DNA from: Frigidibacter albus
GTDB taxonomy: Bacteria; Pseudomonadota; Alphaproteobacteria; Rhodobacterales; Rhodobacteraceae
Length of the DNA: 33,898 nt
NCBI RefSeq assembly: GCF_009908165.1
Contig: NZ_JAAAUC010000018.1
Coordinates: 1-33,898 of the forward strand
Reading direction: 5' to 3'
The notes beneath the pieces are model-generated. The model did not search any database and was not told the origin of the DNA. It worked only from the letters and a program-made list of their open reading frames with translations. Shown one piece after another: positions 890 to 16,871 of the stretch; the stretch's first letter is position 1; the number at the start of each line of letters is the position of its first letter. The translations under genes were made by a program, and so were the position numbers.

Positions 890-915
890 GGATGGTGCTG
901 TGAGAGAGGATTGAA
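890..915. repeat. attL: left 26-bp attachment core
   Basis: This is an exact copy of the tRNA-Thr 3' end, covering the CCA, the acceptor 3' strand and part of the T arm. It continues as GAATTTTCG instead of GAACTCTCG, so it is not a full tRNA. With the copy at 16846-16871 it marks the crossover region of the element's integrase. Confidence 0.92.
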
Positions 916-991
916 TTTTCGTCAAAAACGCGAGAGCTCCGCACAAGTACCTGATAAATATGAGATTCACGCATCCGCTCCCTAGTCGGAA

Positions 992-1022
992 TAGGACGCA
1001 GACTAGGACAACCGCTAGGACA
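992..1022 (+). promoter_or_regulatory. Left integrase arm-type sites (TAGGACA, 12-bp spacing)
   Basis: TAGGACG at 992-998, TAGGACA at 1004-1010 and TAGGACA at 1016-1022 are spaced exactly 12 bp apart, about 77 bp inside attL. The same heptamer at the same spacing recurs just inside attR (16736-16793) and I noticed it nowhere else. Phased short repeats at both inner flanks of an integrated element are the expected pattern for arm-type binding sites of a tyrosine integrase or its directionality factor. The role is inferred from position. Confidence 0.7.
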
Positions 1023-1034
1023 GTGACCACGTCG

Positions 1035-1092
1035 GCGGCGGACATTCTCGGCAGATCTAGGGGTGGCGTCGCCCCCGAGAAATGTCCGCCGC
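1035..1092. terminator. Large hairpin between the left arm sites and the nuclease operon
   Basis: The left arm at 1035-1051 (GCGGCGGACATTCTCGG) pairs with 1075-1092 over 17 bp with one bulged base. A further inner GGGG/CCCC pairing lies in the loop. It sits about 100 bp after the stop of the minus-strand nuclease gene, so it could end that transcript and shield the attachment site. There is no clear T tract on the minus strand, so a structured RNA or protein-binding site is an alternative. Confidence 0.5.
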
Positions 1093-1190
1093 GCACCAGC
1101 AGATTCGATCGACTTTGCGATTCCGCAAATGCGGAAAGGGTGTTCTCCTGTTCACCCGGAAGCAGTCCACTTCGGAGACCCGGCTCAGTG

Positions 1191-2294
1191 CTAGAGCTCA
1201 AGCTTAGGCTGAAGTGGTGGCTGTGGTTGTTCCGACTTCATGGCATTCTCACCAAGCAAGTCGCGACGAGGAATGTCCGCGAAATCTCCGATGAGTCCTA
1301 GAACCGACTTCCCCTCAATTCCTTCTTGTGACCGGGGGGCACGTATAGCGCGCCGGAACGCTTCATTCTCCAACTGAATAGCTGCCTTGTACAGCTCCAC
1401 CCCCGCGTTTGATCTGGAAAAGCTCTCGATTAATCCCCCGAACGGAGATTTATCGATGGATCGATAAAACATTGTTCGAACTTTCGCAGCAGCGCCCCCC
1501 GTCGAGTCGAGATGCTCAGTTACCAACGCCTCAGCAAACTCGATATATCGCCTTCCGTCACCATCGTCATTCCCACCAAACGTCAACCCCTTCCTAAAAA
1601 AGTCAAGCCTCATTTCATGATCCGACAGCACGTGCTTACGACCGAGATAGTCGGCGGCCATAGCAACGAGGGAACACAAATAGTAGGCACCGCGAGTAAT
1701 TGGGCCGGGCTGCCGCTCCCGCTCAACCGCCACACGCAGTAGCAGACTTGCCTCATCAATCCAATTATTGAGAGCGCCAAAGTTAACGCCAAAGGAAATT
1801 CTTGACTTAGCCTCGTCAATCCGAGCTTTTATGCTCTTTCGATCAACAATTACTTGAGACCAGATAGAGTCAAGCTCTTCAGCATAGTATCTGTCTCCGC
1901 CCACAGAATACTTTCGAACCAAGGAGTCGAAGACGCTACTGGATATTACCTTAACATCCAGCCGCTGAGCAAAGTCGTACACCGCTATTTTAGCACCTTG
2001 CGTTGCAACAATTGCCTCATCTGCCCCTAATGTCACCTGCAGACCCTTCACCCAGATAACGCGCTCAAACGCCTTGCCCCGCCGCTTATTCTTGACGTCG
2101 ACTATGGTAACATTTCGCGAGTGCGCATTTGTTCTCGTGTACACCCAAAGATCGACGTCTGTCACATCTTCGCCGCCTACCTTTACAGGAACCCCGCGCA
2201 CAACGAACGAACCGAGACTAGAGAAGTACTCTCGAAAAGCCTCTTCCGCAGCACCGCCCTTATCAACATTTTTCTCGCTTGCAGCCAAGATCAT
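1191..2294 (-). CDS. PD-(D/E)XK nuclease-like protein, second gene of a two-gene cargo operon
   Basis: The protein has 367 aa. The N-terminal 110 residues have the pattern of a restriction-endonuclease-like fold: a helix with E17/E18, then a beta strand DVTDVDLW with D46/D48, then VTIVDVKNK giving D66-x-K68, followed by a basic segment GKAFERVIWVKGLQ. That is the acidic-D...(D/E)xK arrangement of PD-(D/E)XK nucleases. The C-terminal 250 residues are mostly helical and I do not recognise them. The ATG overlaps the stop of the upstream gene (ATGA) and has a strong AAGGAG site, so the two are translationally coupled. GC is clearly lower than in the element backbone. It sits next to attL, a common cargo slot. 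I infer an anti-phage or self/non-self nuclease; the substrate is unknown. Confidence 0.65.
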   Translation of the reverse strand: MILAASEKNVDKGGAAEEAFREYFSSLGSFVVRGVPVKVGGEDVTDVDLWVYTRTNAHSRNVTIVDVKNKRRGKAFERVIWVKGLQVTLGADEAIVATQGAKIAVYDFAQRLDVKVISSSVFDSLVRKYSVGGDRYYAEELDSIWSQVIVDRKSIKARIDEAKSRISFGVNFGALNNWIDEASLLLRVAVERERQPGPITRGAYYLCSLVAMAADYLGRKHVLSDHEMRLDFFRKGLTFGGNDDGDGRRYIEFAEALVTEHLDSTGGAAAKVRTMFYRSIDKSPFGGLIESFSRSNAGVELYKAAIQLENEAFRRAIRAPRSQEGIEGKSVLGLIGDFADIPRRDLLGENAMKSEQPQPPLQPKLEL

Positions 2295-3529
2295 CTCCTT
2301 CTCAGTACGTTCAGGGAGCGAGAGACACCCGATGAAGGCTCGGAAACGGTTTTCTTCCGCTCTGCCTGTCTAGAAGACTCGGGTCCGCCAAACTGATAGG
2401 CAGTGTTACCGACCGCTGCCTCAGCAACCACCTGAATCGCGTCTCCCTTTAAGATGAGCGCCTTCGCCATCTGCCCGATCTCCGGCTTGTCTAGCGTCAG
2501 ACGATACCCTCTATCACTCTGCGTTACAGTCACCACGCCGCGCCTTTCGAGAATCTTGTAATCCTCTTTGAGGGCTTCAGCCCACCCTTCAACATAGCCC
2601 CGATAAATGAGCCGGTCCATCAGTGCGGAAGGGTTGTTGACACGGCCTCTCGATGAGCTACTTTTGACAATTCCATATGTAAGGCTGGCCGACAGAGCTT
2701 TTGCGTCGTCCAACATATCTGCAAGTCCGCAAGGCATAAACTTAGAAATTGCTTCAGGTTTCGTTACAAACTCAGTTTGGCCATGCTCGTTCGTCACTGT
2801 GCTAACTTCGAAGAAGCCAATCTGGTGCAAGTTGCGCCAGAGCTGATCGCCGAGAACTCGCCTTAGCTCTCCCGCTTGGACACATCCTCGCGACTGCATG
2901 AGCGCTTCGGCCTCATGAAGCCGCTGCTGATCCTGAGGGGACATATTCTCAAGAAGATACTTCGCTTTTTTAGCTTGATCGCGCCTGAAAAGCGAACCAT
3001 TGAAGTACAGGCGATCTTCCCCGGCGCCTTCATAGTCCGTGAATCCGATCTGCTCCGACTGTGAGAATAGATCGCTTAACTGACTTATGGAAAGCCGATA
3101 GGTGTCCGAAATCTCTTGCTCGCAGTCGCTACGCTTGACAGGCGCGCGACTCCCCCGCTCAGCCAGATCAAGCGCTGCTTGTTCTAAGCCAGACGGCTTC
3201 TGAGATTTAAAAATTTCAGTGGCGTGACTAAGAAGACTTCGTTGCGTCACCCCCAGCACGGAGACGCCACCGTTTTCACTAACGTCGACGGTTCCCTGCT
3301 CCGACAGCTCGTGGAGCAAGCCCCTCAGTTCGTGTTTTCTTATGCCGAGCGTTTGAGCCAGTGCAGATAATCTTTCAGCATCAACCGTGGTCTGTTTTTC
3401 TTTCGAAATCACAGAGAGGAGGCGTGCGGACCGACCAGCAGTCGTGATGGACTCGAAATAGGCGCTATCGGTCGCCATGAGCTTTTGATCGTGATGAAGG
3501 AGCCAAGCTCCAGTAGTCTCCTGATCCAT
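2291..3529 (-). CDS. Uncharacterised protein with winged-helix-like segments, partner of the PD-(D/E)XK gene
   Basis: The protein has 412 aa from the ATG at 3527-3529 (MDQETTGAW); a TTG four codons upstream is a weaker alternative. I do not recognise the family. Residues about 30-85 look like a winged helix: ARLLSVISKEK, then SALAQTLGIRKHELRGLLHEL, then a strand pair around VDVSENGGVSVLG. A second similar segment lies near 325-350 (LKEDYKILERRGVVTVTQS). The middle is helical and charged, and the tail is rich in S and R. It overlaps the nuclease gene by ATGA and is the first gene of the pair, so it is probably the sensor or DNA-binding partner of the nuclease. This role is inference from gene pairing only. 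Confidence 0.6.
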   Translation of the reverse strand: MDQETTGAWLLHHDQKLMATDSAYFESITTAGRSARLLSVISKEKQTTVDAERLSALAQTLGIRKHELRGLLHELSEQGTVDVSENGGVSVLGVTQRSLLSHATEIFKSQKPSGLEQAALDLAERGSRAPVKRSDCEQEISDTYRLSISQLSDLFSQSEQIGFTDYEGAGEDRLYFNGSLFRRDQAKKAKYLLENMSPQDQQRLHEAEALMQSRGCVQAGELRRVLGDQLWRNLHQIGFFEVSTVTNEHGQTEFVTKPEAISKFMPCGLADMLDDAKALSASLTYGIVKSSSSRGRVNNPSALMDRLIYRGYVEGWAEALKEDYKILERRGVVTVTQSDRGYRLTLDKPEIGQMAKALILKGDAIQVVAEAAVGNTAYQFGGPESSRQAERKKTVSEPSSGVSRSLNVLRRR

Positions 3530-4255
3530 GTACCTACCCAATGCCCCAGACTACGCCTACGCTAAATCTCCACCCGAGGACAGACAAGGCTTTTCCACTT
3601 CACATGTCGCATTCAGTCACAAATTTCAAAACTGAGTATTTTCGACATGCCTATAGAAACGTCGCTCGTTGCCCTGCACGCGTTCTAGTGAGCCCCGCTA
3701 ATGCGCAAGTGCACTGCGGGGCTGACTTCCCGACTACTCGGTCCCGGTGCGGGCGACGACGGATGCAGCTACGAGTTGGGGCTGCAGGCCTTGGCGTGCG
3801 GGAGGGCGAAGCATCGAAGCGCAGCTAGATTTTGCAGGCGGAGGACACGCCTCGTCTGCCCTTCTACCTGCCAAACAAGTGACGACCCTGAAGTTCTCGT
3901 TCGCCGTATCGGTGTACATCACAGCCCGAAACAGACCTCAATGTGAACCGCGTAAGGTCTCCAGTTGCGCACAAGTCCAAAACCTCACTTTCTGAAGATT
4001 ACGGACAGCGGTAGCCGCCATTCAACGTAGAGCATTTTTCACAATCAGTGAGAAACGGAACCAAACGGTTGCATAGCAACCTGCTAACAGCGACTGAAAC
4101 CCTAATGGATCTGGAGGTACTACCCCCGTTGGGTCCCCTAGCCTCTTTTTTACCCCGTAGGTGATGTTTTGGCATTTCTCCGCTGACGCGGGCCATCACT
4201 TATTTCGAAGACCAGCCGTCAACCCCCTCAGCCCCCTATAGGGCGTTTGGAGGTG
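3530..4255. other. Non-coding cargo spacer with two inverted repeats
   Basis: No convincing gene is visible in these 726 bases. It should contain the promoter of the minus-strand nuclease operon at its left end. Two perfect inverted repeats stand out: AGCCCCGC (3691-3698) with GCGGGGCT (3716-3723), and GGTTGCATAGCAACC (4067-4081). A copy of the CCGCTGACGCGGG hairpin lies at 4180-4192. A 62-codon minus-strand frame at 3734-3922 has no supporting features and may be chance or a decayed gene. Confidence 0.5.
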
Positions 4256-4930: not shown

Positions 4931-5419
4931 GTCGGGCCTCGTATAAACAAGCATTGTTCGTTGTGCTTTGTATATCGCCGGGTGTCATGATTCGCGAGTC
5001 TTTTCAATATGTTAATTGATGTATTGTGGAGATTTTCGGTGCGGTATGGCGCCCGCGTCAGCGCGGGCGTCGCCGGGTGCGGTGTAGCCCCCGCGTCAGC
5101 GAGGACGTCGCCGGGTGCGGTGTGGCCCCCGCGTCAGCGAGGACGTCGCCGGGTGCGGTGTGGCCCCCGCGTCAGCGGGGACGTCGCCGGGTGCCGTCGG
5201 GATCTCTGGGGCGACGATATGGAGCGGCGCCCACCCGGAATCGGAAAAGAGCGATGTGAACTCCTGAGGGCGCAGCAACCCATCGAGGTCGCCAGCGTCT
5301 GGAGTGGGCTTTCGAATGGTGGGTGGAGCGTTCTAAGTGAAAATACGCACTTCCCCGCCTGCGCTGATATGTTCTATGGTTCGGCAACAGAGAAAATGCA
5401 TTTCACGCTAGGAGCTATC
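4931..5419. promoter_or_regulatory. Intergenic region with tandem repeats upstream of the membrane protein
   Basis: This is the divergent spacer between the serine recombinase and the plus-strand membrane protein. Its first 120 bp hold the recombinase promoter region, then come four tandem 38-bp units (5054-5205), then about 210 bp that must hold the promoter and leader of the downstream gene. An AAGTG...CACTT inverted repeat lies near 5335-5352. The reading frame is open across it, but the codon content looks wrong and the real start is at 5420. Confidence 0.5.
5054..5205 (+). repeat. Four tandem 38-bp repeats
   Basis: Units begin at 5054, 5092, 5130 and 5168, each with CGCGTCAGCG, a near-exact 38-bp period and only a few substitutions. 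Each unit carries CCCGCGTCAGCG(G/A)GG, which folds into a short hairpin, and GACGTCGCCGGGTGCGGTG. Thirty-eight is not a multiple of three, so this is not a protein repeat. The copies are contiguous with no spacers, so it is not CRISPR. The last copy decays after about 30 bp. Confidence 0.9.
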
Positions 5420-6673
5420 ATGTCAGACGTTGAAGCCAGTTCCATTGAAGCTCCGAAGCCCCACGTTATAGGAATTGAGTTTTATTCGAAGCGAGGTAAT
5501 AAGGATGAACTCCTAATTAATTCAGACGAACTAAGGACACCGTTCGATGCTAAGGCAAGATGGTTTTCCTACAGCTTTGCCCGCCCAGTTTTTCTAACAA
5601 GAATTGAGATAGCCTCCAACGGTTATGCCTCGTATGATAAATTTGACATTGAAGTTGATCATGTCGATGGCACCAGACATGAGGAGAGAATTAGCGTAGA
5701 TAATGGGTTTGTTAGACTTCACCTAGGCAAGCTGGCAACCGCGTTCCGGTTTCGGCCTGACAAGAAATATCTTTCCGATCCGAAACTAATTCGCGTCGTT
5801 GCTAGTGGGTACACAGAGAATGAATTTCACGACTTTGAGTGGATCGTAAAGGAGTTTCACTCAAAATCTGCTGCGCTTAGTGAGCGAGAGAAGCTGCTTG
5901 AGCTGAAGGAGGCGCAGTTCTCAGCTCTCAAGGCGCAGCGGACCGAGATTGAAAGTGCCGTTGGAAAGACGAAGGCCGAATACGAGCAGCTAGTGCTTTC
6001 TCTCGCAGCGGCTAAAGACTCCGCGGCAAAGCTGGCTACGCAGGAAAAGGACATGAGGCAAAGAAATTCCAGTGCAGAAGAGACGCTTCGAGACTTGAAT
6101 AGCAGAATTGACAAGGAAAATACCAAGCTTCAAGAGCTCGTAAGGGAGGTGCGTTTGTTTCCAAGTGAGATTGCAGGTTTCGTTAAGGAAGGGAATCGCA
6201 GTATTTTAACCTACATGTTAATTGGCGCTCCATTTCTGATAGTTCTGATAACAATAGTCGTCATGATATTCGTCAACGCGGTCAATCTGACGCAGATATA
6301 CAAGGAGGTGGACCAGATAGACATTTGGACGGTTTTTCTCACAAGGATTCCATTTGTTCTCGTTGCGATTGCGCTAATAGAGGCTAGCGGCTATATAGTC
6401 GGTCGTTTGGTTTTTGAGGTAATAAGAATAAATAGGCAGCGGGTGGAGTTTTCCAAGCTGAGCATAATCGCAAAGGATGTCTCCACGGCGTCGGCTGCGT
6501 ACAGCGAAGAAATGACCGAGCAAGAAATTTATGACTCCGAAACTAAGCTTAAGATGGATCTACTGCGCGAACACATGAAGAACTACGTGGGCAGCGAATT
6601 TGAGTACAAGGGTACTGGTTTAATCGCAGCCATCAAGGGAGTCGCTGAGCGACTTGCGAGAAAGTCTGAATAG
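5420..6673 (+). CDS. Coiled-coil membrane protein with N-terminal beta-rich domain
   Basis: The protein has 417 aa from the ATG at 5420 (MSDVEASSIEAP), chosen for AGGAG five bases upstream and because the longer upstream frame crosses the 38-bp repeats. Residues about 15-145 are strand-rich (HVIGIEFYSKRG, WFSYSFARPVFLTRIEIASN, AFRFRP) and resemble a discoidin-like sandwich. Residues about 150-250 form a long coiled coil of K/E/Q heptads. Two hydrophobic helices follow (IGAPFLIVLITIVVMIFV and VFLTRIPFVLVAIALIEASG), then a charged C-terminal helix. GC is near 45 percent, far below its surroundings, so it was probably acquired separately. It stands alone. A membrane-acting defence effector is plausible; the family is not recognised. 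Confidence 0.65.
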   Translation: MSDVEASSIEAPKPHVIGIEFYSKRGNKDELLINSDELRTPFDAKARWFSYSFARPVFLTRIEIASNGYASYDKFDIEVDHVDGTRHEERISVDNGFVRLHLGKLATAFRFRPDKKYLSDPKLIRVVASGYTENEFHDFEWIVKEFHSKSAALSEREKLLELKEAQFSALKAQRTEIESAVGKTKAEYEQLVLSLAAAKDSAAKLATQEKDMRQRNSSAEETLRDLNSRIDKENTKLQELVREVRLFPSEIAGFVKEGNRSILTYMLIGAPFLIVLITIVVMIFVNAVNLTQIYKEVDQIDIWTVFLTRIPFVLVAIALIEASGYIVGRLVFEVIRINRQRVEFSKLSIIAKDVSTASAAYSEEMTEQEIYDSETKLKMDLLREHMKNYVGSEFEYKGTGLIAAIKGVAERLARKSE

Positions 6674-6992: not shown

Positions 6993-7313
6993 ATGAAACG
7001 AGTTTTGCCGCTGGGCCTCGCGCTCGCGCTAGCCGGATGCGTGGAACCTGCAATGATGACAGGTGCCAGCTATCCAGCCATAGCCCCGGAACAGGTTCGC
7101 ATGTCATTCGCGTCCATGCCCGATTGTCCCGGCGCCGCAGAGATCGGTCTGATTCCTCAGGTTGGATCGAACAAGTATGCGCAGGACCGCGCTCTAAATG
7201 CGATCCGCGCGCAGGCCGCCTCGAAGGGTGCGAACCTTGTTCTTATGACCACGCGGCCCACCAGCATGTTGGGCGACATGCTGATCGACGCTGTGATGTA
7301 TCGTTGCCCCTAA
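6993..7313 (+). CDS. Small lipoprotein (DUF4156/RcsF-like)
   Basis: The start is the ATG at 6993 (MKRVLPLGLALALAGC), which has AAAGGA seven bases upstream and gives a textbook lipoprotein signal with lipobox LALAGC, Cys16 being lipidated. The mature part is about 91 aa. Residues RALNAIRAQAASKGANLVLMTT match the conserved core of small DUF4156/RcsF-like outer-membrane lipoproteins (a helix followed by a GAN-V/L strand). Two more cysteines (in MPDCPG and near the end, YRCP) could pair. It probably sits in the outer membrane. It forms a short operon with the next gene. In an integrated element it could alter the cell surface, but no specific role is visible. Confidence 0.65.
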   Translation: MKRVLPLGLALALAGCVEPAMMTGASYPAIAPEQVRMSFASMPDCPGAAEIGLIPQVGSNKYAQDRALNAIRAQAASKGANLVLMTTRPTSMLGDMLIDAVMYRCP

Positions 7314-7331
7314 GCAGTCCAGGAGTTGAAC

Positions 7332-7721: not shown

Positions 7722-7974
7722 CTGACGGGCCGTGGTCGGGCTCAGCACCCCCGGCCATGTCGGCAAGCTGCTGGTGCGCAGGCCGGGCAAGCCTCGGGTG
7801 GTCAGGGACACTGGGAGGAGGTGCTGCTGTAGGCGTTGCGTCAGGTGCCGCGCGAGCTAGAGGCCGGGCGGACAGCCATCTGTCGGGGCGAGCGGCGAGG
7901 CTGCCCAAGGAGCTGGCGGCGCGATGGGGGGCGCTCTATGGTTGTGCTTCACCATGAAAAAGGGAGCCACCCAA

Positions 7975-8226
7975 ATGATGACAGTGGATAACCTGCATCG
8001 GCAGGCAAAGGTTACGGCGGATGACATTTTCGAACACACGCTTTCAGTCGTGTCCGGGGAGTTTGATGTGAAGAGAGGGACGGCGGACTTTAGGAAGTTG
8101 GCCGTCGAACTCGCCCCGGTGATCGCGGCCATAATGAACGTAACCGCTACGGACCTTCGGACCATGCTGGAGCATCAAAGAGCGGAAAGCGAGCTTGAGT
8201 TTCGGCGGAGCCAGCTAGACGACTGA
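7975..8226 (+). CDS. Small hypothetical protein next to the origin
   Basis: The protein has 83 aa from the ATG at 7975 (MMTVDNLHRQAKVTADDIF); GGGAG lies about nine bases upstream. The upstream 50 codons of open frame lack a ribosome site and are not included. The sequence is helical and acidic-basic mixed (FEHTLSVVSGEFDVKRGTADF, then LAPVIAAIMNVTATDLRTML). It ends just before a perfect CCCGC/GCGGG hairpin (8229-8242) and then the iteron region. It may be a replication or regulatory accessory protein because of that position. I do not recognise the family. Confidence 0.5.
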   Translation: MMTVDNLHRQAKVTADDIFEHTLSVVSGEFDVKRGTADFRKLAVELAPVIAAIMNVTATDLRTMLEHQRAESELEFRRSQLDD

Positions 8227-8228
8227 AT

Positions 8229-8242
8229 CCCGCTGACGCGGG
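8229..8242 (+). terminator. Short GC hairpin after the 83-aa gene
   Basis: CCCGCTGACGCGGG is a perfect 5-bp stem with a TGAC loop, three bases after the stop codon at 8224-8226. It is followed by a C run, not T, so it is at best a weak terminator. The same 13-mer core is found at 4180-4192 and, reversed, in each 38-bp repeat at 5054-5205. Confidence 0.4.
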
Positions 8243-8271: not shown

Positions 8272-8597
8272 GGCGGGTGTTATTGCGATCTGGCGGGTGT
8301 TCGGCGGGTGTTATTCGAGCGAGCACCCGCCAAAATTATCCAACGAATACTGGCACTTATCCGTTTTGGCGGGTGTGGCGGGTGTTATTTTGGCATCTTT
8401 ACGCATAGAAAATTACATCTTCTCTCTCGCCCTAAACGTCTAAGAACATATGTGCCCGCTATGTCCCGGCGATGGCCCAATAACACCCGCCACACCCGCC
8501 ACACCCGCCATTTCCGCTAAAGCTATGATAACAAGGCATAAAAATGGCGGGTGTTCCGTCTGGGAACACCCGCCGAACACCCGCCAGAACACCCGCC
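8272..8597. other. Probable replication origin: 9-bp iterons flanking an AT-rich core
   Basis: Twelve exact copies of GGCGGGTGT lie in 326 bp. Forward copies start at 8272, 8292, 8303, 8368, 8377 and 8546. Reverse copies start at 8483, 8492, 8501, 8566, 8577 and 8589, and one imperfect reverse copy is at 8323. Forward copies cluster on the left and reverse copies on the right of an AT-richer core at about 8386-8480. The array ends at the stop codon of the minus-strand primase-helicase gene. Iterons around an AT-rich tract directly downstream of rep are the known plan of satellite origins such as those of SaPIs. I infer that the primase-helicase binds here. Confidence 0.75.
8541..8574 (-). terminator. 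Rho-independent terminator of the primase gene, built from two iterons
   Basis: On the minus strand an iteron and its inverse form a 12-bp stem (GGCGGGTGTTCC / GGAACACCCGCC) with a 5-base loop, followed by ATTTTTATG. It lies about 25 bp after the primase stop codon, as expected for an intrinsic terminator. It also contributes the origin iterons at 8546 and 8566. Confidence 0.7.
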
Positions 8598-11500: not shown

Positions 11501-11928
11501 GTCGCTGCGACCTTCTGCACCACGTTGTCAATCGTCGTGCCTTCGTCGATGTCGATCCCGATGGCATACATCTGCCGCATCGAATCTTTCTTGCGCTCGC
11601 CATTGCCCGACACGCCCAGCACAAAGCCGCTGCCTTCCTTCCGGGTGCTCTTCATGTGCCGGGTCAGCTTCGCGTCCAAAAGCTCACGCCAAGTCCCGGT
11701 GGTGGGCTTCCAGCCGTTCGGCTTCGTGCCCATTCCGGGCCTCTTGGGGTCTATCTTCCCGAACGTGACCTGCGCCTCCTGTGACATGAGGTCATCAAAC
11801 GCGGTGGACGCTTGCCCAAGCATGTGGGCGCTGTTCCATGTCTTCTGGTCCCAAGGACGCATACTTTTCTGTTCGCCCACAGGGGCGTTGCTCTGTTCGT
11901 CGAAGGTGTGGGTCGAGTGCTTGTTCAC
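8599..11928 (-). CDS. Primase-polymerase/helicase replication protein
   Basis: The protein has 1109 aa with a GTG start at 11926-11928. Residues about 120-290 show an archaeo-eukaryotic-type primase pattern: GIDIDEG with D126 and D128, IHKMRVILPL, and CEDPSRFFYAARHP. Around 365-410 a CHC2-like zinc finger appears (CAFHD...CLHSCRDRH). The C-terminal part is an AAA+/SF3-type helicase domain with a P-loop-like PAPGTGAG near 778 and a Walker B LFFDN near 830, followed by ITAANT-like sensor text (LIIAANTLSMSEELLRRG). It should prime and unwind DNA at the adjacent iteron origin. It is the last gene of the minus-strand train and follows a 51-aa gene. The P-loop lacks the usual lysine. Confidence 0.85.
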   Translation of the reverse strand: MNKHSTHTFDEQSNAPVGEQKSMRPWDQKTWNSAHMLGQASTAFDDLMSQEAQVTFGKIDPKRPGMGTKPNGWKPTTGTWRELLDAKLTRHMKSTRKEGSGFVLGVSGNGERKKDSMRQMYAIGIDIDEGTTIDNVVQKVAATGYAAVIYTSYRHMTQTLELNYSKVIRHGAVTDETVQKYLRQEKPNLGEECIREVTVATARHDTGGEIVVICNCPPIHKMRVILPLAQPVDISCLTRDPKEGAKIWRAKVKALAAMLGVQHDTACEDPSRFFYAARHPEGAEWRTLVFRGRPLAFEELETEGDNPFLRAAGSAGRVSTIPESVTATTPDGRTINVTSLYRRYGQRWELHRIMEGTSAYHRDGDVDGKAVVRCAFHDSEHSDREDDDATIAWSPDAHEHGFAAITCLHSCRDRHHTVNYLAKYIEDGILDPADLEAAENMIPVGVGGEGPFSRLTPEEGADDDEVLEDIVLPDRAAREADTAASNRDALLSLVDAFDIDTTEPEVREVIRVALKTKADKAALGRLKTAVTGKTAIKAAAYNGLVTEEKASQKRKGAKKSSGSMDVYDHYKARNDYIAGRIRAVNSTDPAFFQYMEEFATADAVRGRIRVLDYLTFSTEVQKIVDFFKVRSTDKSERQVGAKAPGENLEFVFNDATFRDSLPALSRVVTTPFFASDGTLVSTPGYHAGAEVYLSPNGLQVTGVSPHPTADEANAAARYIVEEVLADFPLGGLSRAEIMEQAFTGTGVPAVANVLAMILLPFVRDMIRGATPLHLVNKPAPGTGAGYLVACSTIIPTGFEAPAMTMPPGKDELAKTLFAALIAGGTHLFFDNVNHEMDSAELASVATAPEEGYEARVLGKSQKVTVKIKQVLIIAANTLSMSEELLRRGILIDMDARMPHPDLRDPEKFRHRDIRGWCRDNRAELVRCCLTIIQHWVAEGQKPGKYTLASFENWAEIMGGILDSAGVRGFMGNAAALKDDLANGEADVMGEVFQAIAEAFHSHTKLGNDPRLYIGTKKLEETRKGKIGVFDILHAMDDVPRLEWGETEQYKDGEMRVVYSNSNKASAKFKAEAKRTRRVEIDGKAWNVRYEREKDAKAKSWCYRQVLTEP

Positions 11929-11939
11929 TGTCTTGCCTG

Positions 11940-12095
11940 TCAGTTGCCCGGCGCGAGGATCGTCTGCACCTCTGCCGCCAGCCGCTGGATTTCGCCGCGC
12001 ACATCCTCAAGAGGACGCAGCGACAGGTCAGCGACCTTGTGGCACAGGATCAGAACGTTTTCCTCGTTTGGGTCGTTTTGGTTGGTGGTGTTCAT
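11940..12095 (-). CDS. Small 51-aa protein upstream of the primase gene
   Basis: The ATG at 12093-12095 is preceded by GGAGGG eight bases away, the best ribosome site in this part of the element. The product (MNTTNQNDPNEENVLILCHK...) is helical, with KVADLSLRPLEDVRGEIQRL and AAEVQTILAPGN at the end. It stops 11 bases before the GTG of the primase gene, so the pair is co-transcribed and the weak primase start may depend on coupling. No family is recognised. A replication accessory or primase-regulating role is inference. Confidence 0.6.
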   Translation of the reverse strand: MNTTNQNDPNEENVLILCHKVADLSLRPLEDVRGEIQRLAAEVQTILAPGN

Positions 12096-12310
12096 GGCGT
12101 TTCCCTCCGTTTCAACGGCACGGTTTGTGCTGCTTCTGGGGGAGTATTAGCCCGCAATACCGCAGGCTGGTTAGACGCTTTTATGTTACGTAGCAGATGT
12201 TTATGGCAAGGATGGAAAACTTGAGTATTGGCGTCCGGGGAAACTCAGCTTCAAGCCGACTTTGCCCGAACGGCTTTCCACTTGATCGCTGAGGGAGGGA
12301 AAATATTCCT
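12096..12310. other. Spacer inside the replication gene train
   Basis: There are 215 bases with no gene on either strand that I can support. It must carry the leader of the 51-aa gene at its left end. The base composition is AT-richer (TTATGTTACGTAGCAGATG near 12181), so an internal promoter for the primase operon is possible but not assigned. Confidence 0.4.
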
Positions 12311-12535
12311 TCACGCTGCCGCAGCATCTTGGATGAACCGCCACCCTGCGGGCGGGCCGAGGATGACGTCGCCAGCCTCGATTCTGGCTGCGATCTCGGC
12401 GGCGAGGCGTTCGGCTTCCCGGGCCAAATCCTCGGCAGAAAGCTTCTCTCTGGCCCTCTGCCCGCGCTGCCAACGCTTTCGGTTGGCATCCCGGCGCTTG
12501 GCGTCGACTCCTGCCTGCCTTTGCGCCGGGGTCAT
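12311..12535 (-). CDS. Small basic helical protein (74 aa)
   Basis: The start is the ATG at 12533-12535, overlapping the upstream stop codon as ATGA. The product begins MTPAQRQAGVDAKRRDANRK and has a strongly basic first half, then an acidic-alanine helix (AEDLAREAERLAAEIAARI) and the tail GPPAGWRFIQDAAAA. The pattern suggests a small nucleic-acid-binding or coiled-coil protein. Coupling to the 116-aa gene upstream supports it as a real gene. No family assigned. Confidence 0.55.
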   Translation of the reverse strand: MTPAQRQAGVDAKRRDANRKRWQRGQRAREKLSAEDLAREAERLAAEIAARIEAGDVILGPPAGWRFIQDAAAA

Positions 12536-12882
12536 GCGGCACCCCGTGCTTGCTGCAGCATCCCGCCCGGGTCGAGGTTGAAGATGATGGCGCGCACCCG
12601 TTCGCGGATGGGTCCCGTCTTCACTTCCAGTTCCATGAGGCCGAGGATCTGATCCGGCTTGCGCTCGAAGAATTCGCCCGAGACGTCCAGTTTGAAGCCA
12701 TTCTGTCGGGCCGCGAGGTAAGCGACCCGGGGCAGGTTGGCGCATACCTCCTGCCACTCATAGAGTTCGATTATGAGCGGGATATGGACGTTGAGATGGA
12801 TCGTGTCCGCCAGCAGGGCGGCGACCTCGGTGACGACAGACGACTCAATGGTCGAGTAAGTATCGGAAGCCCTGTGGGCCAT
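12532..12882 (-). CDS. Hypothetical protein (116 aa) of the small-gene train
   Basis: The start is the ATG at 12880-12882 (MAHRASDTYSTIESSVVTEV), with AAGGA upstream; the longer open frame to 12936 has no ribosome site. The sequence alternates helix and strand (IHLNVHIPLIIELYEWQEV, KLDVSGEFFERKPDQILGLM, RVRAIIFNLDPGG). The next gene overlaps it by ATGA. No recognised domain. It is probably a replication or regulatory helper of the element. Confidence 0.55.
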   Translation of the reverse strand: MAHRASDTYSTIESSVVTEVAALLADTIHLNVHIPLIIELYEWQEVCANLPRVAYLAARQNGFKLDVSGEFFERKPDQILGLMELEVKTGPIRERVRAIIFNLDPGGMLQQARGAA

Positions 12883-12990
12883 GACTGGAGTCCTTGATTT
12901 GATTTTGGGAAGGGTGACGAGCTGGCCGTGAACCAACCCAGCTCGCCTATTGGCGCAAGTGCCTACCGGGCGGCCCCGCCGCCGGTCATT

Positions 12991-13017
12991 CCGCCCGGCG
13001 CCTATCGCGCCGGGCGG
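12991..13017. terminator. Strong GC hairpin between two small-gene groups
   Basis: CCGCCCGGCG at 12991-13000 pairs perfectly with CGCCGGGCGG at 13008-13017 around a 7-base loop. It lies between the 87-aa gene (ending 13099) and the 116-aa gene (starting 12882). No T run follows on either strand, so it may pause or attenuate transcription and not fully stop it. Confidence 0.5.
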
Positions 13018-13098
13018 GCTGTCTGGTGTGTGGCGCGACAGGGCGGGGAGTCCCTGCCACGCCCTTCCTGCCCGGGCATGGCAACCCCGGCAGAAACT

Positions 13099-13362
13099 CT
13101 ATCTGCGGCGTCGCCGTCGCGGCTCACAGGACTCATCAGCCTCTCGGATCGACCGCGCGGCGGCGGGCGTCAACTGGCGTGGCTGGTCTTGTGCACCACG
13201 GACAAGCATCAGTAGCAGCGTCATATACTGTTGGGCCGTCAGCACCTTTCCGTTGATCGTGGTGCGCGTCTGATCTGGTCGCGGCGGGCTAACATATGTG
13301 GCGGGATGGCCCCTGTCGGCGATGATCTGCGCGGCGAGCGCTTCCAGCTCCTGCGAATTCAT
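13099..13362 (-). CDS. Small hypothetical protein (87 aa) with arginine-rich tail
   Basis: The ATG at 13360-13362 overlaps the stop of the upstream gene as ATGA. The product begins MNSQELEALAAQIIADRGHP, has a central strand segment RTTINGKVLTAQQYMTLLLML, and ends in RRRRRR. The basic tail suggests nucleic-acid contact. It is the last of five coupled genes that start at 14803. No family recognised. Confidence 0.55.
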   Translation of the reverse strand: MNSQELEALAAQIIADRGHPATYVSPPRPDQTRTTINGKVLTAQQYMTLLLMLVRGAQDQPRQLTPAAARSIREADESCEPRRRRRR

Positions 13363-13556
13363 GGCCAGACCTCCAGATCCGCGCCCGGATGCAGGATCTG
13401 GAGGACGCAGTTCGTCCAGACAGCAGAGAAGGTTTCGCCCGTTGATCTCAGCCGGAAACTATCCGGCCCAAGGCGCTCCCATCCGGCCCAGAAGTTCGGC
13501 GCGTCTGATCTGGAGGCAGAAATCAGGCGGTTTAGGATTTCATCAGATACTGACAT
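13359..13556 (-). CDS. Small hypothetical protein (65 aa)
   Basis: The ATG at 13554-13556 overlaps the preceding stop as ATGA, and the gene itself ends in an ATGA overlap with the next one. The product starts MSVSDEILNRLISASRSDAP and is rich in W, F and L in its second half (FWAGWERLGPDSFRLR, TNCVLQILHPGADLEVWP), suggesting a small beta-sheet fold. The double coupling is the main evidence that it is translated. Confidence 0.5.
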   Translation of the reverse strand: MSVSDEILNRLISASRSDAPNFWAGWERLGPDSFRLRSTGETFSAVWTNCVLQILHPGADLEVWP

Positions 13557-14041
13557 CAGAGCATACCGGCTGCACGCGCCGCACTGATACGTTCCGCAGG
13601 TGGCAACCGCCGCAGCATCAGCAGGAATTTCGCCTCATCTTCCGCCGAAGGTGATGCAGGCTTTCGGGCGGTCGCAGCCCGTTCCGCAGCGCGGGCAGCT
13701 TCCAGTTCCCGTCCGAAGTTGAGGCGCTGGTAAGGATTCATCCGGGCGAGTTCCGCGTGAATCTCTCCCTCACCCCGGGCGAGCTGGCGCGTGACTTCCA
13801 CCTTGTGGGCTTGCTGCCCGATATGCGGAAGCCGTCGAAGTTCGGTCAGAGCGTCTGCCGTATTCAGGCCCATTTCGCTGAAAGTGGCGAGCTTCACCGA
13901 AGGACAGCTTTTCAGATCGTCGGCGGTGATCGACAGGCCAGCGTCGGCGGCTGCCGCCCGGACCATGTCGAAGATGCCGTCGAAGCGGGCTTGCAGGCGG
14001 GCATCGCCCGCCACGGCTTGGTCGAAATTATGCGTAGTCAT
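13556..14041 (-). CDS. Hypothetical protein (161 aa) of the regulatory train
   Basis: The ATG at 14039-14041 lies inside the end of the upstream gene (14-base overlap), and its own stop overlaps the next start. The product is largely helical (DQAVAGDARLQARFDGIFDM, then AADAGLSITADDLKSCPS, then a long charged helix ELARMNPYQRLNFGRELEAA). The C-terminal motif FLLMLRRLPPAERISAARAA is amphipathic. I do not recognise the family. Its place between a HTH-like gene and other tiny genes suggests a regulatory or replication-associated role. Confidence 0.55.
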   Translation of the reverse strand: MTTHNFDQAVAGDARLQARFDGIFDMVRAAAADAGLSITADDLKSCPSVKLATFSEMGLNTADALTELRRLPHIGQQAHKVEVTRQLARGEGEIHAELARMNPYQRLNFGRELEAARAAERAATARKPASPSAEDEAKFLLMLRRLPPAERISAARAAGML

Positions 14042-14300
14042 TCATGAATCTCACATGCTCAAAGTCTGCAGAAGTGGGTTGCGGGGCGGGGGGCGCGTCG
14101 TTGGAAACGACGGGATCGGTGAGGCCTTTGACCTGTGCGGCGCTGATCCGGTGCGCGGCGGCGATGATCGCGGTGAGGGCGTCGCAGGAGCTTAGGACTT
14201 GGGCGATTCCAGCGTCGGTACCGCCCCCACGCCGATGGATGCGGGCACAGCATTTGGCCGAGGAAAGCGCGAGGCGGCGAAGGGCTGAAAGTTCGTTCAC
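14028..14300 (-). CDS. Small hypothetical protein (90 aa), GTG start
   Basis: The start is the GTG at 14298-14300, which overlaps the upstream TGA stop (GTGA). The longer open frame to 14402 runs inside the upstream gene and is not used. The product begins VNELSALRRLALSSAKCCAR and continues with HRRGGGTDAGIAQVLSSCDALTA, which is helical with three cysteines. It ends with a flexible proline-rich stretch. No family recognised; the coupling on both sides is the evidence for a gene. Confidence 0.45.
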   Translation of the reverse strand: MNELSALRRLALSSAKCCARIHRRGGGTDAGIAQVLSSCDALTAIIAAAHRISAAQVKGLTDPVVSNDAPPAPQPTSADFEHVRFMNDYA

Positions 14301-14803
14301 GCTACGATCTCCGACGTGTGGAGCAACGCGAAGATCCGGGCTTTCACCGCCCAATTCTCGGGCACGGTCGAGGGGTTGCCGGTGATCGCGTATGCGAGGC
14401 ACCCACCGTCGCGTAGGATAAGAACCCTGAGGACTTCGGCGTCGGCAACCCAGCCGCTGGACTTCACAGCCTGCGCGAGGCCGTCAAAGAACTCCCTGCG
14501 GATGTGGGCGATGCGAAAGGCTGCGCCATGTACGTGGCGGATCAGAAACCGCTCCAGCGCCTCGGTCGCGGGAAGATCTACCCGCCCACCCACAACCGTC
14601 TCCCCGGTGTCTTCGACCGCGCGCGCCAGCAGGGCAGGCACGGCATAGGCGTACTTATCCGGCAGCCCCGCAAGTACGTCGGGCAGGGGATAAAACTTGA
14701 CGCCATTCACGGTCGTCGCGTTCACATTCTTGAGGCGGGTGTAGACCTGCCGCGCGCTTGCGTGGCAGCATTCTTGGTAGTCTTTCTGGGTCACGCGGAG
14801 CAT
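14297..14803 (-). CDS. Helix-turn-helix-like protein heading the small-gene train
   Basis: The protein has 168 aa from the ATG at 14801-14803. The first 50 residues (YQECCHASARQVYTRLKNVN, then VNGVKFYPLPDVLAGLPDK) look like an AlpA/excisionase or MerR-type winged helix: a recognition helix, then a wing leading into Y-P-L-x-D-V. The remaining 110 residues are helical and unknown. It is the first gene behind a promoter covered by an 18-20-bp palindrome, so it may be an autoregulator, an excision factor for the neighbouring integrase, or both. The assignment is by pattern only. Confidence 0.5.
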   Translation of the reverse strand: MLRVTQKDYQECCHASARQVYTRLKNVNATTVNGVKFYPLPDVLAGLPDKYAYAVPALLARAVEDTGETVVGGRVDLPATEALERFLIRHVHGAAFRIAHIRREFFDGLAQAVKSSGWVADAEVLRVLILRDGGCLAYAITGNPSTVPENWAVKARIFALLHTSEIVA

Positions 14804-14841
14804 CTGGTCACTTTTTCATTTCACGATCAATCTATTCTTGA

Positions 14842-14870
14842 CTTATACTCTGTTTTCGCGGGTGAGTCGA
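14842..14870 (-). promoter_or_regulatory. Sigma70-like promoter of the small-gene train
   Basis: On the minus strand TCGACT (14870-14865) as -35 and TATAAG (14847-14842) as -10 are separated by 17 bp. The transcript would begin about 30 bases before the ATG at 14803. The -35 box lies inside the palindrome at 14859-14878. Confidence 0.5.
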
Positions 14871-14878
14871 GTCACCCG
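14859..14878. promoter_or_regulatory. Palindromic operator candidate over the promoter
   Basis: CGGGTGAGTCGAGTCACCCG is a 20-bp palindrome with one mismatched pair. It covers the -35 box of the promoter reading into the replication train. This is the expected place for a repressor that keeps the element silent. Confidence 0.6.
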
Positions 14879-14926
14879 ACGATTCGGTCGTTATTTTTTG
14901 CAGATGGATGAAGCGGTCCGCGCATG

Positions 14927-14948
14927 AAAAAGCCCGCTGAACGCGGGC
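14927..14948 (-). terminator. Rho-independent terminator of the integrase gene
   Basis: On the minus strand GCCCGC (14948-14943), a short loop, GCGGGC (14937-14932) and TTTTT (14931-14927) form a standard intrinsic terminator. It lies about 155 bases after the integrase stop and before the next promoter, so it insulates the small-gene train from integrase transcription. Confidence 0.75.
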
Positions 14949-15103
14949 CTTCAGCATCTCTGTAAATTGGCGGCACCCCCCGACGCCACCCCACCCACAC
15001 GGCGAGACGGCGGCCCGGAGATGGGGGTGGGGCGGCTAGGTGGCGGCGCAGCTCGGCACGGGGCGGCTGGAGCTGGCGAGGGGATGTCCCTGCGGCTTGC
15101 AGA

Positions 15104-16729
15104 TCAGGGCTGGTCTGCGCGCCCTGCCCCGCCGTCCTTGGTCAAGAACGGGATCACGGCTTCCATCGCTTCGAGCTTCTCTTGCAGCAGATCCGCACCG
15201 CCGTAGTTGGATTCTGTGTAGTCCTCACCGTCCAAGCGCCCCGCGATCAGGCGGCGAATCTCTGGGTCAATCTTGGCGCGCCGCGCGGCATCGGTCCACG
15301 AGTGGCGGAAACTGTGGAAGACCAATCCATCATCAGTGAGTTCGAGCGGGGTGCGGACGTACCGGCTGAAGCGTTCGCCATAGGTTTCGGTGTAGCGCCC
15401 CCGGTCATTCAACCGCACCTCGCGCGGCGTCTTTAGCTTGGTGCGGTTGTCTGTGTAGTTTTCAAGGAACAGCATCTTGCCCCCCGCCTGACGGCGGCGG
15501 GCAACAAAGTCACCGAACCCCGCATCCATCAAGGCCACGGGAACGGGGATGGTGCGGAAGCTGTGTTTGTTCTTCACCTTCTGGTCCTCACCTTCGTCGG
15601 TAATGCTGATCGTCAGCAGGTTCCCCCAGTTCGCCACGTCGGCCACATAGAGCTGCCCGATTTCTTCGCGCCGCGCCCCGGTGAATGCCGAAAAGATCGG
15701 TGCCCAGCGGTCGAGGGTGTCTTCGTGGAAACGCGCCGCGCAGTGAGGCAGGATCAAGCGGACCTGCGCAGGTGAGAACGGCTTCGTGTCGTCTTTCGCC
15801 CGCTCCGAGTGCTTCTGCTTGGCCTTGATGATCGTGTATTTTCCGAACGGGTCAGCCTTGATGAGGCCAAGCTGATTCATCGCATACGTAGCCAGCGCCT
15901 TCATGTGATCTATGCGGGTCTGCCTGATCTTGTCGCCCATCGTGTCCAGCCCCTTCACCTTCGCAACCTCAATGGCTTTGCGGATTGGCAGGTCTTGGAC
16001 GCGCTTCTCTCGGGTGATCGGCAGGCCTTTCAGGGCGTCGGAAAACGCGCTCAGGTGCGACTTTTCCCATTTGGCGATGGCAATATCGCCATGCAGTTCT
16101 ACCCACCGGCGGACGGTGTATCGCAGCGAATCCCGGAACTGCTTCGTGTAGCTCTTGTCATCGGCCATCCGCTCTGCAAGTTCGCGGATGCCGGTCACAC
16201 CTTCGTCAAGGAAGGCTGGCGCGGGCGGCACCGCCACCTCCAGCGTGGCGGAGATAGACTTCAACCTGCGAATTTCTGCCGTGATGGTGGTTTGGAAGGC
16301 TTCGTGCGCCGCCAGATCGGCCTTGAGCTGGATTTCCCGCATGACGTCGGGTGATAGCTCTTCGTCATCTGCGATGTCGGTTGCACCGTGACCCGCGATC
16401 AGGAACGCCGCCTGCTGACGCAGGCTTTCGACCGCGCGGGGTAGATACTGCCGCCCACCCAACGACTCCACAGCACCGGCGTCAGCCGGGAACAGTAACG
16501 CCTTAAAGCGCGCATCATCGGCCCTGTGTTCCGCGTTGCGCACTTGCACGTCGAAAGCCGCACGTTGCGCCCTCACCTGTCGCTCGGCTTCGCTGGGATC
16601 CCGCGATCCCGTACTCCGCTCGAAGGCGACCTTGCCGCCGTATTCTTGCCGGATCGCAGGGGGGATCGGAATGTTGAGGTGATAGTACCCGCCGCGCTGC
16701 TTGGTGAATCTCACTTTTTGCAGGGTCAT
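15104..16729 (-). CDS. int: Tyrosine site-specific recombinase (integrase)
   Basis: The protein has 541 aa from the ATG at 16727-16729 (MTLQKVRFTKQRGGYYHLNI). A GTG at 16762 would extend it through the arm sites and is less likely. The N-terminus is a beta-rich arm-binding domain and the middle is a helical core-binding domain. The catalytic domain has the first arginine in FTGARREEIGQL, the HxxR box in FHSFRHSWTDAAR, and the nucleophile tyrosine near the end in the DYTESNYGG region. It lies next to tRNA-Thr and attR, transcribed away from the tRNA, and should catalyse integration and excision between the 26-bp cores. Phased TAGGACA repeats lie directly upstream, so the protein may also repress its own gene. 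Confidence 0.92.
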   Translation of the reverse strand: MTLQKVRFTKQRGGYYHLNIPIPPAIRQEYGGKVAFERSTGSRDPSEAERQVRAQRAAFDVQVRNAEHRADDARFKALLFPADAGAVESLGGRQYLPRAVESLRQQAAFLIAGHGATDIADDEELSPDVMREIQLKADLAAHEAFQTTITAEIRRLKSISATLEVAVPPAPAFLDEGVTGIRELAERMADDKSYTKQFRDSLRYTVRRWVELHGDIAIAKWEKSHLSAFSDALKGLPITREKRVQDLPIRKAIEVAKVKGLDTMGDKIRQTRIDHMKALATYAMNQLGLIKADPFGKYTIIKAKQKHSERAKDDTKPFSPAQVRLILPHCAARFHEDTLDRWAPIFSAFTGARREEIGQLYVADVANWGNLLTISITDEGEDQKVKNKHSFRTIPVPVALMDAGFGDFVARRRQAGGKMLFLENYTDNRTKLKTPREVRLNDRGRYTETYGERFSRYVRTPLELTDDGLVFHSFRHSWTDAARRAKIDPEIRRLIAGRLDGEDYTESNYGGADLLQEKLEAMEAVIPFLTKDGGAGRADQP

Positions 16730-16735
16730 CTGGCC

Positions 16736-16793
16736 TGTCCTAGTTTTTGTCCTAGCGGACACTAGGACATAAACTAGGACAAACGCTAGGGAA
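16736..16793. promoter_or_regulatory. Right integrase arm-type sites (TAGGACA, 12-bp spacing)
   Basis: Reverse copies are at 16736-16742 and 16748-16754. Forward copies are at 16763-16769 and 16775-16781, with a variant TAGGGAA at 16787-16793. Both groups have a 12-bp period, matching the three copies inside attL. The array lies between the integrase start codon and attR, so binding here could serve both recombination and control of the integrase promoter. Confidence 0.75.
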
Positions 16794-16845
16794 AAGGCGC
16801 GAGTAAATCCTTGTTTTTGCGTATGTTCTTATAATTCAAGGGGAT

Positions 16846-16871
16846 GGATGGTGCTGTGAGAGAGGATTGAA
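16846..16871. repeat. attR: right 26-bp attachment core inside tRNA-Thr
   Basis: This is the exact partner of 890-915. It covers the CCA end, the discriminator, the 3' acceptor strand and part of the T arm of tRNA-Thr, so integration leaves the tRNA intact on this side. Confidence 0.92.

Follow-up and report, generated by a model that had tools for sequence, protein, structure and literature searches.

What kind of mobile element occupies a tRNA-Thr gene of Frigidibacter albus, and by what vehicle might it travel? The stretch of DNA analysed here (the window, 33,898 nucleotides) is one complete contig of its genome, in which an earlier note, made from the letters alone, had seen a satellite-like element between exact repeats. 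We propose, on the strength of sequence comparisons and with a probability of about 0.72, that this element is an integrated satellite of a new family, that its helpers would be siphophages of the DSS3P8/CbK-like kind and that it would work in a manner resembling that of the Staphylococcus aureus pathogenicity islands (SaPIs) and the phage-inducible chromosomal island-like elements (PLEs). The two 26-bp repeats are identical throughout and enclose 15,982 bp, 23 of the 26 bp being the 3' end of the tRNA-Thr(GGT) gene; the chance expectation of such a match is ~1e-9. The enclosed DNA has a GC content of 0.582, compared to 0.669 in the right flank. The left flank measures just 889 bp and lies beside an assembly break, since the window is the entire contig and begins with a repeat of ~130 bp (approximately positions 1-130) that recurs on nine further contigs of this genome and is probably the end of an insertion sequence.

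Read from the tRNA side, the genes follow in the order integrase, C13, C24 and C2 (named after protein clusters), small open reading frames (ORFs), Rep, iterons, small cargo ORFs, a coiled-coil cargo ORF, a serine recombinase and two cargo ORFs (Table 1). The repeats, the tRNA-proximal integrase, the primase-polymerase/helicase and the iterons directly after its gene were thus all found where the note had placed them. The integrase remained under the cut-off for DUF6538 (26.9 bits, cut-off 27) and for Pfam Phage_integrase (E=0.023), and clustered with proteins from 7 other loci. In agreement with the claim that conjugation genes are missing, Pfam and NCBIfam scans of the window genes submitted to them returned no relaxase, and none of the 10 window proteins scanned matched a PHROG virion family at E<=0.1.

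We then searched 394 genomes of one bacterial family (the Roseobacter/Rhodobacter group) with Rep, which gave a match at E<=0.001 in 46 of them, distant helicase-half matches counted. When the stretches around 31 Rep loci were tested for exact repeats of tRNA 3' ends, such repeats were found to bound 12 of 32 loci (window included), and in 19 the stretch contained no tRNA or showed no repeat; G126C234, where the match was 19 bp internal to the tRNA, was left out of the element count. A search of named genomes with a Rep alignment yielded 18 loci, six of which gave new bounded elements. As a single-sequence query, the window Rep matched nothing in the genome or viral contig collections; the alignment query did match. 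In total, we obtained 18 bounded elements at nine tRNA isotypes, with sizes of 12.9-25.0 kb (median, 15.5 kb; 14 of the 18 at 14.2-16.2 kb), the weakest boundaries kept being those of L089 (15 bp) and G288C13/L094 (two pieces of 15-16 bp). The gene set that the note had suggested looking for in related genomes is therefore present there, and its recurrence at tRNA genes supports the view of a coherent integrative element with a satellite plan. Named hosts, labelled Paracoccaceae or Roseobacteraceae, include Citreimonas salinaria (DSM 26880; L097), Gemmobacter aquatilis (DSM 3857; L089), Thalassovita taeanensis (two elements), Silicimonas algicola, Pseudoruegeria sp., Boseongicola sp., Pseudotabrizicola alkalilacus and Pseudohalocynthiibacter aestuariivivens. 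Loci in Azospirillum and Pseudaminobacter (L099 and L106) contain Rep and lack the remaining gene set.

Gene counts coded by hand over the 18 bounded elements gave Rep in 18, integrase in 17, a protein of the C2 family or with its motif in 17, resolvase in 16, the small terminase subunit (TerS) in 10, C13 in 9 and a tape measure in 6; the integrase of G327 was recovered as two weak pieces, suggesting a broken gene. The gene order is conserved as integrase, C13/C24/C2/TerS block, small genes, Rep, iterons where present, resolvase and cargo or tape measure, with the integrase at the opposite end in some elements. In several relatives the cargo slot holds genes of restriction-modification or of other defence-like kinds, namely, Eco57I-type methylases, a C5 methylase adjoining a HATPase gene and, among the matches listed (25 of 70 Pfam families; 149 proteins of 11 relatives), DarT1-NADAR, NERD and Vsr in one protein each. 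The same listed families include no relaxase. PHROG scans of the relatives cover the listed 25 of 117 families (149 of 153 selected proteins, the four that extended over two stretches being excluded) and 25 of 51 families (85 proteins), so that rare virion genes may escape; in the latter list, all virion-labelled families came from two proteins, one each of L101 and L089. Separately, six genomes (G029, G065, G128, G366, G264 and G342; loci L051, L054-L058 and L060) were seen to carry a different conserved cluster, C6-C12, around a Rep that resembles that of the window in its helicase half, perhaps another kind of mobile element.

Proteins resembling those of CbK-like phages

The C2 proteins, mostly of ~150-170 aa, carry a terminal or internal motif that resembles the last residues of gp030, the product of the gene before the major capsid gene of phage DSS3P8 (LSPQQRINFARRHGL in G075 compared to MSPQQRMNYARKHGL in DSS3P8). 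Several records of CbK-like phages annotate the gp030 homologue as head scaffolding protein. The "train of tiny regulatory genes" described in the note is thus present as a series of small ORFs, but one of these encodes the putative scaffold mimic; likewise, the statement that the element shows no known gene for packaging or helper interference did not hold, since C2 bears the scaffold motif and relatives have TerS and a tape measure. A position-specific scoring matrix (PSSM) from three roseophage scaffold ends was run over the 824 proteins of all first-round loci. The 12 C2 proteins took ranks 1-5, 9, 11, 12, 17, 18, 28 and 38, and ranks 6, 7, 8 and 10 went to other small proteins, encoded in comparable loci from which C2 was not recovered. 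The window C2 ranked fifth, and none of 1000 shuffles scored equally well. A second run covered 386 proteins of L089-L105, loci that partly overlap with the first set; its top ten were all short or TerS-block proteins of elements: seven C2 proteins, two other small block proteins and the 307-aa TerS protein of L101. Alignment of the C2 family with the scaffolds by hhalign gave P=1.8e-4 over 22 columns at 45% identity, and when 18 window proteins were compared with a hidden Markov model (HMM) of the DSS3P8 scaffold, C2 came out best (E=0.004; next, 0.49). A scaffold-like motif, LSPQRQKNLARHHAI, also occurs in the TerS-type protein (307 aa) that the Nioella element encodes (L101:7621-8544; rank 4 of 386); this protein may be a scaffold mimic fused to TerS.

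The TerS of the relatives (cluster C4) matched the phage TerS family encoded beside TerL with an hhalign probability of 97.6% (E=2.7e-12, 109 columns), five other pairings reaching 0.2-7%. C13, which precedes C24 and C2, was matched ten times when its profile was run against the 394 genomes; nine matches lay at most 4.1 kb from a Rep match, and the tenth was the weakest (E=7e-4). The C13 fold had no match at E<=0.001 in the PDB or the viral library, and the viral match of highest probability among those listed was an excisionase fragment (E=1.7). Possible roles of C13 are those of an excisionase/regulator or of a packaging protein. The idea that C13 and TerS are alternatives for one slot was dropped, since G074C15 and G064 carry both and the two proteins show no homology.

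Nine loci encode a tape measure. Two of these proteins, of 1041 and 1053 aa, matched PHROG tape-measure families at 8e-33 and 1e-54 and, under the cut-off, Pfam TMP_2 and Tape_meas_lam_C. Eight of the nine measure 957-1093 aa, i.e., 52-60% of the length of the DSS3P8 protein (1825 aa), and that of L090 measures 508 aa. When three of them were compared with gp046, the N-terminal 46-49 residues were 54-71% identical, and the C-terminal pieces were 56%, 72% and 36% identical over 86, 101 and 118 columns; all but that of L090 align near both ends. Five C-termini are DSS3P8-like or cut (L102), and four are of a YGG..N type. In L102 the frame is split into 957 aa and a 114-aa ORF matching the phage C-terminus; the other eight genes are single open frames. 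At the nm-per-residue ratio of DSS3P8, tape measures of 959-1093 aa predict tails of 158-180 nm. Among other tail genes, L101 has a PHROG "tail assembly protein", and L089 has a homologue of gp041 (PHROG "tail completion or Neck1"), whose 60% identity to DSS3P8 gp041 over 156/159 aa is a sign of gene flow. Locus L090 (Antarcticimicrobium luteum, 7208-18700) combines C13 and a scaffold-motif protein with the 508-aa tape measure and with a TerS of phage type, which matches gp206 at 35% identity over 162 columns; no tRNA or att was found in this stretch. Tape measure and TerS were negatively related across the bounded elements (Fisher p=0.0015); this relation was set aside and not used as evidence, because the rows share descent, the table was coded by hand and the unbounded L090 and L101 carry both genes.

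We also compared 26 DSS3P8 proteins (23 from the virion block, TerS, TerL and the protease) with 16 elements at E<=0.01; L094, L098, L100, L101, L105 and L090 among these are truncated where the contig or stretch ends, or their far boundary is not fixed, and the tape-measure carriers G074C38 and G409C67 lie outside the set. Matches were obtained for the scaffold end in 2 elements, gp041 in 1, the tape measure in 7 and TerS in 2, and for nothing else. The note had allowed that structural genes in homologous elements might reveal this one as a deletion remnant; a few tail and packaging genes do occur in relatives, but DSS3P8-type portal, major capsid, large terminase and tail tube had no match in the 16 elements. 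Moreover, no DSS3P8-type major capsid gene was found in the 394 genomes of the family, that of the window included, with a query that matched 3 of 5 viral records as a control.

In tblastn searches, Rep matched 66 phage records, and in 54 of these the match spans at least 80% of Rep, the best being DSS3P8, V10, MAL1, MD18, RpAliso and RcXuper at 33-34% identity (34% to gp116 of DSS3P8); further matches include 38 Caulobacter, 8 Brevundimonas and other records. The 20 plasmid records matched were all partial, none reaching 80% cover, and mostly concerned the helicase half. The phage relatives of two tape measures (74 and 63 records, 38 from Caulobacter in each case) are largely the same phages, and the DSS3P8 scaffold has a similar range of phage matches. 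Rep, tape measure and scaffold all indicate a single helper group, the prolate, long-tailed CbK-like phages. DSS3Phi8 is described as CbK-like, with a prolate head of ~130 x 40 nm and a tail of ~300 nm (PMC4961962).

The AlphaFold model of Rep is modest (pLDDT 70.3, pTM 0.39). Its Foldseek matches were AsfvPrimPol (4e-6), the archaeo-eukaryotic primase (AEP) domain of S-2L PrimPol (2e-4, TMt 0.54), PriRep1 (7e-5), the SaPI5 primase-helicase (1e-4) and other helicases of the superfamily 3 (SF3) type; a Rep profile run against PDB sequences gave nothing at E<=0.01. Because of these structural matches we take Rep, on its modelled fold, to be an AEP primase-polymerase plus an SF3/D5-type helicase. 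In a midpoint-rooted Rep tree, in which some forks are moderately supported and the window row sits on a long branch, DSS3P8, MD18 and RcXuper fall among the elements, and phiCbK falls elsewhere; this intermixing suggests that Rep was exchanged between phages and elements more than once. According to PMC4961962, CbK-like phages have no primase gene. The gp116 protein of DSS3P8 (L073:44627-48439) and its homologues in L131-L133 belong to the same family as the window Rep and, since the latter models as a primase-polymerase plus helicase, gp116 is probably the primase-helicase of CbK-like phages.

The iterons adjoining the end of the Rep gene (12 exact 9-bp copies of GGCGGGTGT/ACACCCGCC, with two further occurrences elsewhere in the window) form a probable replication origin. 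At least 6 copies of one 9-mer within 700 bp after Rep were found in 12 of 24 Rep loci (window included), the motif being particular to each locus; control windows peak at 2-8 copies. Mimicry of a helper origin was considered and is not supported, the four phages checked having no iteron array adjoining Rep. In the 700 bp upstream of Rep, loci of the C13-carrying subgroup (L102, L103, L104, L105 and G074C38) have repeated GCTTCAAGC/CTTGAAGCC motifs, GCTTCAAGC being present in 3-5 copies.

Proposed mechanism and its alternatives

Upon infection, the element would excise via its integrase, perhaps with C13 as excisionase, and replicate from the iterons by its own Rep, multimers being resolved by the serine resolvase. 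The C2 protein, whose motif copies resemble the coat end of the helper scaffold, might compete with that scaffold, and the helper coat protein would then close into a small shell fitting ~15.5 kb rather than ~146 kb. Packaging would proceed via the satellite TerS where present and, in this copy, via the helper TerS or C13; in carriers of a tape measure the virion tail would be ~40-48% shorter. Tentatively, and at slightly less than an even chance, we read the family as remodelling both head and tail of its helper. The prolate ~146-kb head would become a ~15-kb one through a scaffold-end mimic that often has two putative coat-binding motifs, and about one-third of the elements would cut the ~300-nm tail to ~160-180 nm via a shortened tape measure and, in one case, the gp041 tail terminator. 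The window element would be a version of this machinery in which cargo has taken over the slot of the tail ruler; by gene order, the 412/416-aa cargo ORF does occupy the slot that holds the tape-measure gene in several relatives.

Several points weigh against the satellite reading. The element is known here from its sequence, from which we infer excision, replication and packaging as well as the two-motif arrangement and the small capsid size. The scaffold link is a motif of ~20 residues with an hhalign probability of 48.8%; the unrelated pair C2-TerS reached P=0.005 (four other pairings, P>=0.15), 4 of the 12 C2 proteins rank at 17-38 of 824, that of G244 was equalled by 12 of 1000 shuffles, and six C2 proteins of named loci (L089, L091, L095, L096, L102 and L104) score <30 at ranks 12-30 of 386. 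In HMM searches, TerS and tape measure were both missing from the window copy, and hhalign gave no sign that C13 is homologous to TerS. The iteron array is absent from half of the 24 loci and from beside the Rep gene of the four phages. Finally, the helper would have to come from outside, since no DSS3P8-type capsid gene was found in the bacterium's own genome.

On the other side stand site-specific integration with an own integrase (26-bp att, tRNA-Thr, integrase) and an incomplete virion gene set, both expected of a satellite; a putative redirecting of helper packaging or assembly would involve the scaffold motif in this copy, TerS and the tape measure being confined to relatives. The serine resolvase and the iterons recall plasmids, Rep has partial plasmid homologues (20 records) and several relatives hold defence-like cargo, all of which would suit an integrative element or plasmid spread by conjugation (as a mobilizable element) or natural uptake, its phage-like genes being accessories or anti-phage decoys. 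We consider such an origin quite improbable: neither a relaxase nor conjugation genes, the mark of integrative and conjugative or mobilizable elements, were found in the window scans or the listed 25 of 70 Pfam families of relatives, the scaffold motif, TerS and tape measure converge on a single phage group, and the narrow size distribution around 15.5 kb suits packaging.

That Rep, tape measure, TerS and scaffold end all resemble one phage group, and that DSS3P8 itself has an integrase gene, could also be accounted for by a remnant of a DSS3P8/CbK-like prophage reduced by deletion, a reading whose weight is raised slightly by the split frame of L102 and by iterons in only half of the loci. 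Yet size and gene order recur at nine tRNA isotypes, the major capsid and other head genes of such a prophage were not found among 16 elements (nor, with a working control, was the former in any of the 394 genomes), and the alignment of C2 with the scaffold is limited to the C-terminal motif. Moreover, eight of the nine tape measures are single open frames, eight of nine are shortened yet related near both ends, and half of the loci have iterons of their own; a remnant is thus very improbable. We regard it as unlikely, too, that the element is a satellite of which this copy uses other helpers, sharing the C2 motif by descent alone. This copy does lack TerS and tape measure, and helper switching is suggested by four of the nine tape measures of relatives, which end in the YGG..N type, unlike DSS3P8; however, the window C2 is fifth among 824 proteins in its score for the DSS3P8-type motif, and the window Rep groups near the DSS3P8/RcXuper/MD18 clade (long branch, moderate support). 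A satellite of DSS3P8/CbK-like phages is the reading we retain; it ties the element to a named, cultured helper group via separate genes and is therefore directly testable.

Cargo and coordinates

The 367-aa cargo ORF had no Pfam or PADLOC match at E<=0.1; by eye, its spaced acidic residues and a VDVKNK stretch resemble the motif of PD-(D/E)XK nucleases. Together with its winged-helix-like neighbour, it may form a defence pair. Four tandem copies of a GC-rich 38-bp unit (5038-5189) lie at the beginning of the 506/554-aa coiled-coil ORF, the start of which is therefore uncertain. Weak matches of small window ORFs to Nif11 and type VI secretion immunity families were judged to be due to chance. 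Beyond the element, a 1725-aa ORF (28362-33539, minus strand) lies between a tRNA-Phe gene (28003-28078) and the contig end.

Table 1. Features of the element and of its integration site, with positions in the window.
Feature	Position	Strand	Basis
Att-like 26-bp repeat, far end	890..915	+	exact copy of 16846-16871
367-aa cargo	1191..2294	-	one chance-level NCBIfam match
412/416-aa winged-helix-like cargo	2291..3541	-	weak VpaChn25_0724 phage-family match, E=2e-4, under cut-off
Short serine recombinase/resolvase, cluster C1	4256..4954	-	Pfam Resolvase 7e-26
506-aa coiled-coil cargo, two apparent membrane helices by eye	5153..6673	+	weak SMC-like coiled-coil matches
Lipoprotein-like 119-aa cargo, cluster C34	6954..7313	+	DUF4156 E=9e-4, under cut-off; homologue in element G074C38
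129-aa small cargo ORF, cluster C35	7332..7721	+	homologue adjoining a Rep in G259
83-aa ORF	7975..8226	+	phrog_1231, weak match, E=0.018
Iteron array (probable origin), 12 exact 9-bp units, both orientations	8272..8597		repeat search
Rep, predicted primase-polymerase (AEP) and SF3/D5-type helicase, 1109 aa	8599..11928	-	phrog_10537 5e-168; Foldseek
Small ORF, 51 aa	11940..12095	-	ORF call
Small ORF, 74 aa	12311..12535	-	ORF call
Small ORF, 116 aa	12532..12882	-	ORF call
Small ORF, 87 aa	13099..13362	-	ORF call
Small ORF, 65 aa	13359..13556	-	ORF call
C2, 161 aa, putative scaffold mimic with scaffold C-terminal motif	13556..14041	-	PSSM, hhalign, HMM
Scaffold motif copy 2, weaker, C-terminal, residues 139-161	13559..13627	-	PSSM
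Scaffold motif copy 1, residues 94-116, IHAELARMNPYQRLNFGRELEAA	13694..13762	-	PSSM
C24, 90 aa, conserved small protein between C13 and C2	14028..14300	-	clustering
C13, 168 aa, winged-helix-like N-terminus and helical C-terminus	14297..14803	-	AlphaFold pLDDT 89.4
Tyrosine integrase, DUF6538-like N-terminus, cluster C5	15104..16762	-	PHROG integrase 8e-16
Att-like repeat at tRNA-Thr gene 3' end	16846..16871	+	repeat match
tRNA-Thr (GGT), integration site	16849..16923	-	ARAGORN, Rfam

Comparison with known satellites

Satellites of alphaproteobacterial phages appear to be little described: a literature search that covered few subscription papers, and no bioRxiv as such, found no description of a Rhodobacteraceae, roseophage or alphaproteobacterial satellite, papers on the latter two being judged from title and opening of the abstract. 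Novelty is not proven, because most subscription papers fell outside that search. The present family suggests that CbK-like phages, a long-standing tool of Caulobacter research, are parasitized in related hosts, and its Rep proposes a primase-helicase for these phages. One 15-kb chassis with or without TerS and tape measure would moreover provide a natural series for the study of scaffold and tail-ruler mimicry.

P4-like satellites combine an integrase with a primase-helicase and an iteron origin, and their gene set comprises psu, sid, delta and ash. The element shares integrase, primase-helicase and iterons with them, and the proposed size switching has a counterpart in that by P4 Sid; Sid is an external scaffold, whereas the mimic found here resembles the C-terminus of an internal one. 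No P4-named family was matched by the window proteins in Pfam and PHROG scans, in libraries whose content of such models was unchecked.

SaPIs are about 15 kb in size, bounded by att sites and equipped with their own replication module, and genes specific to phage-inducible chromosomal islands (PICIs) are stl/alpA-type regulators, the PICI pri-rep and cpm/pti/ppi. Likeness to SaPIs and other PICIs (operon I, cpmA/cpmB, terS) lies in size, att, replication module, the putative scaffold mimic and TerS (the last in relatives here) and, by fold only, in the match of Rep to the SaPI5 primase-helicase and PriRep1. The window proteins matched no PICI-named family in Pfam, PHROG and NCBIfam, libraries that were not checked for such models. 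Differences are the hosts, the proposed helper (a CbK-like phage of ~146 kb), the ~160-aa mimic with one or two motif copies and the tape measure in nine loci. A scaffold mimic (CpmB/Rcm) and TerS lie within one SaPI operon, scaffold competition being reported for CpmB and proposed for Rcm (PMC12409344), and a precedent for switching from prolate to isometric heads, by another route, is SaPIbov5 (PMC8569155).

The PLE of Vibrio cholerae, which we likened by description only, is also a satellite of a large helper (ICP1, ~125 kb) and encodes its own tape measure, giving chimeric, shorter tails (PMC12987554). It uses an external scaffold, TcaP (PMC10945586), and its tape measure is 95 aa off that of ICP1, as opposed to ~730-870 aa off that of DSS3P8 in 8 of 9 loci here. 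As a kind of gene, the satellite tape measure is no novelty, since putative ones are noted in other putative satellites (PMC12987554, Extended Data Fig. 10 legend) and in satellites of E. coli (PMC10448857). Similar in this respect are the capsid-forming PICIs and those E. coli satellites that carry capsid, tape-measure and baseplate genes; both kinds encode coat proteins, of which no DSS3P8-type homologue was found among 16 elements here. The element would thus work in the way of SaPIs and PLEs, and we propose this likeness without claiming membership in those named families; what seems to be new is the family itself, the helper group, the scale of the shortening and a scaffold mimic with up to two motifs.

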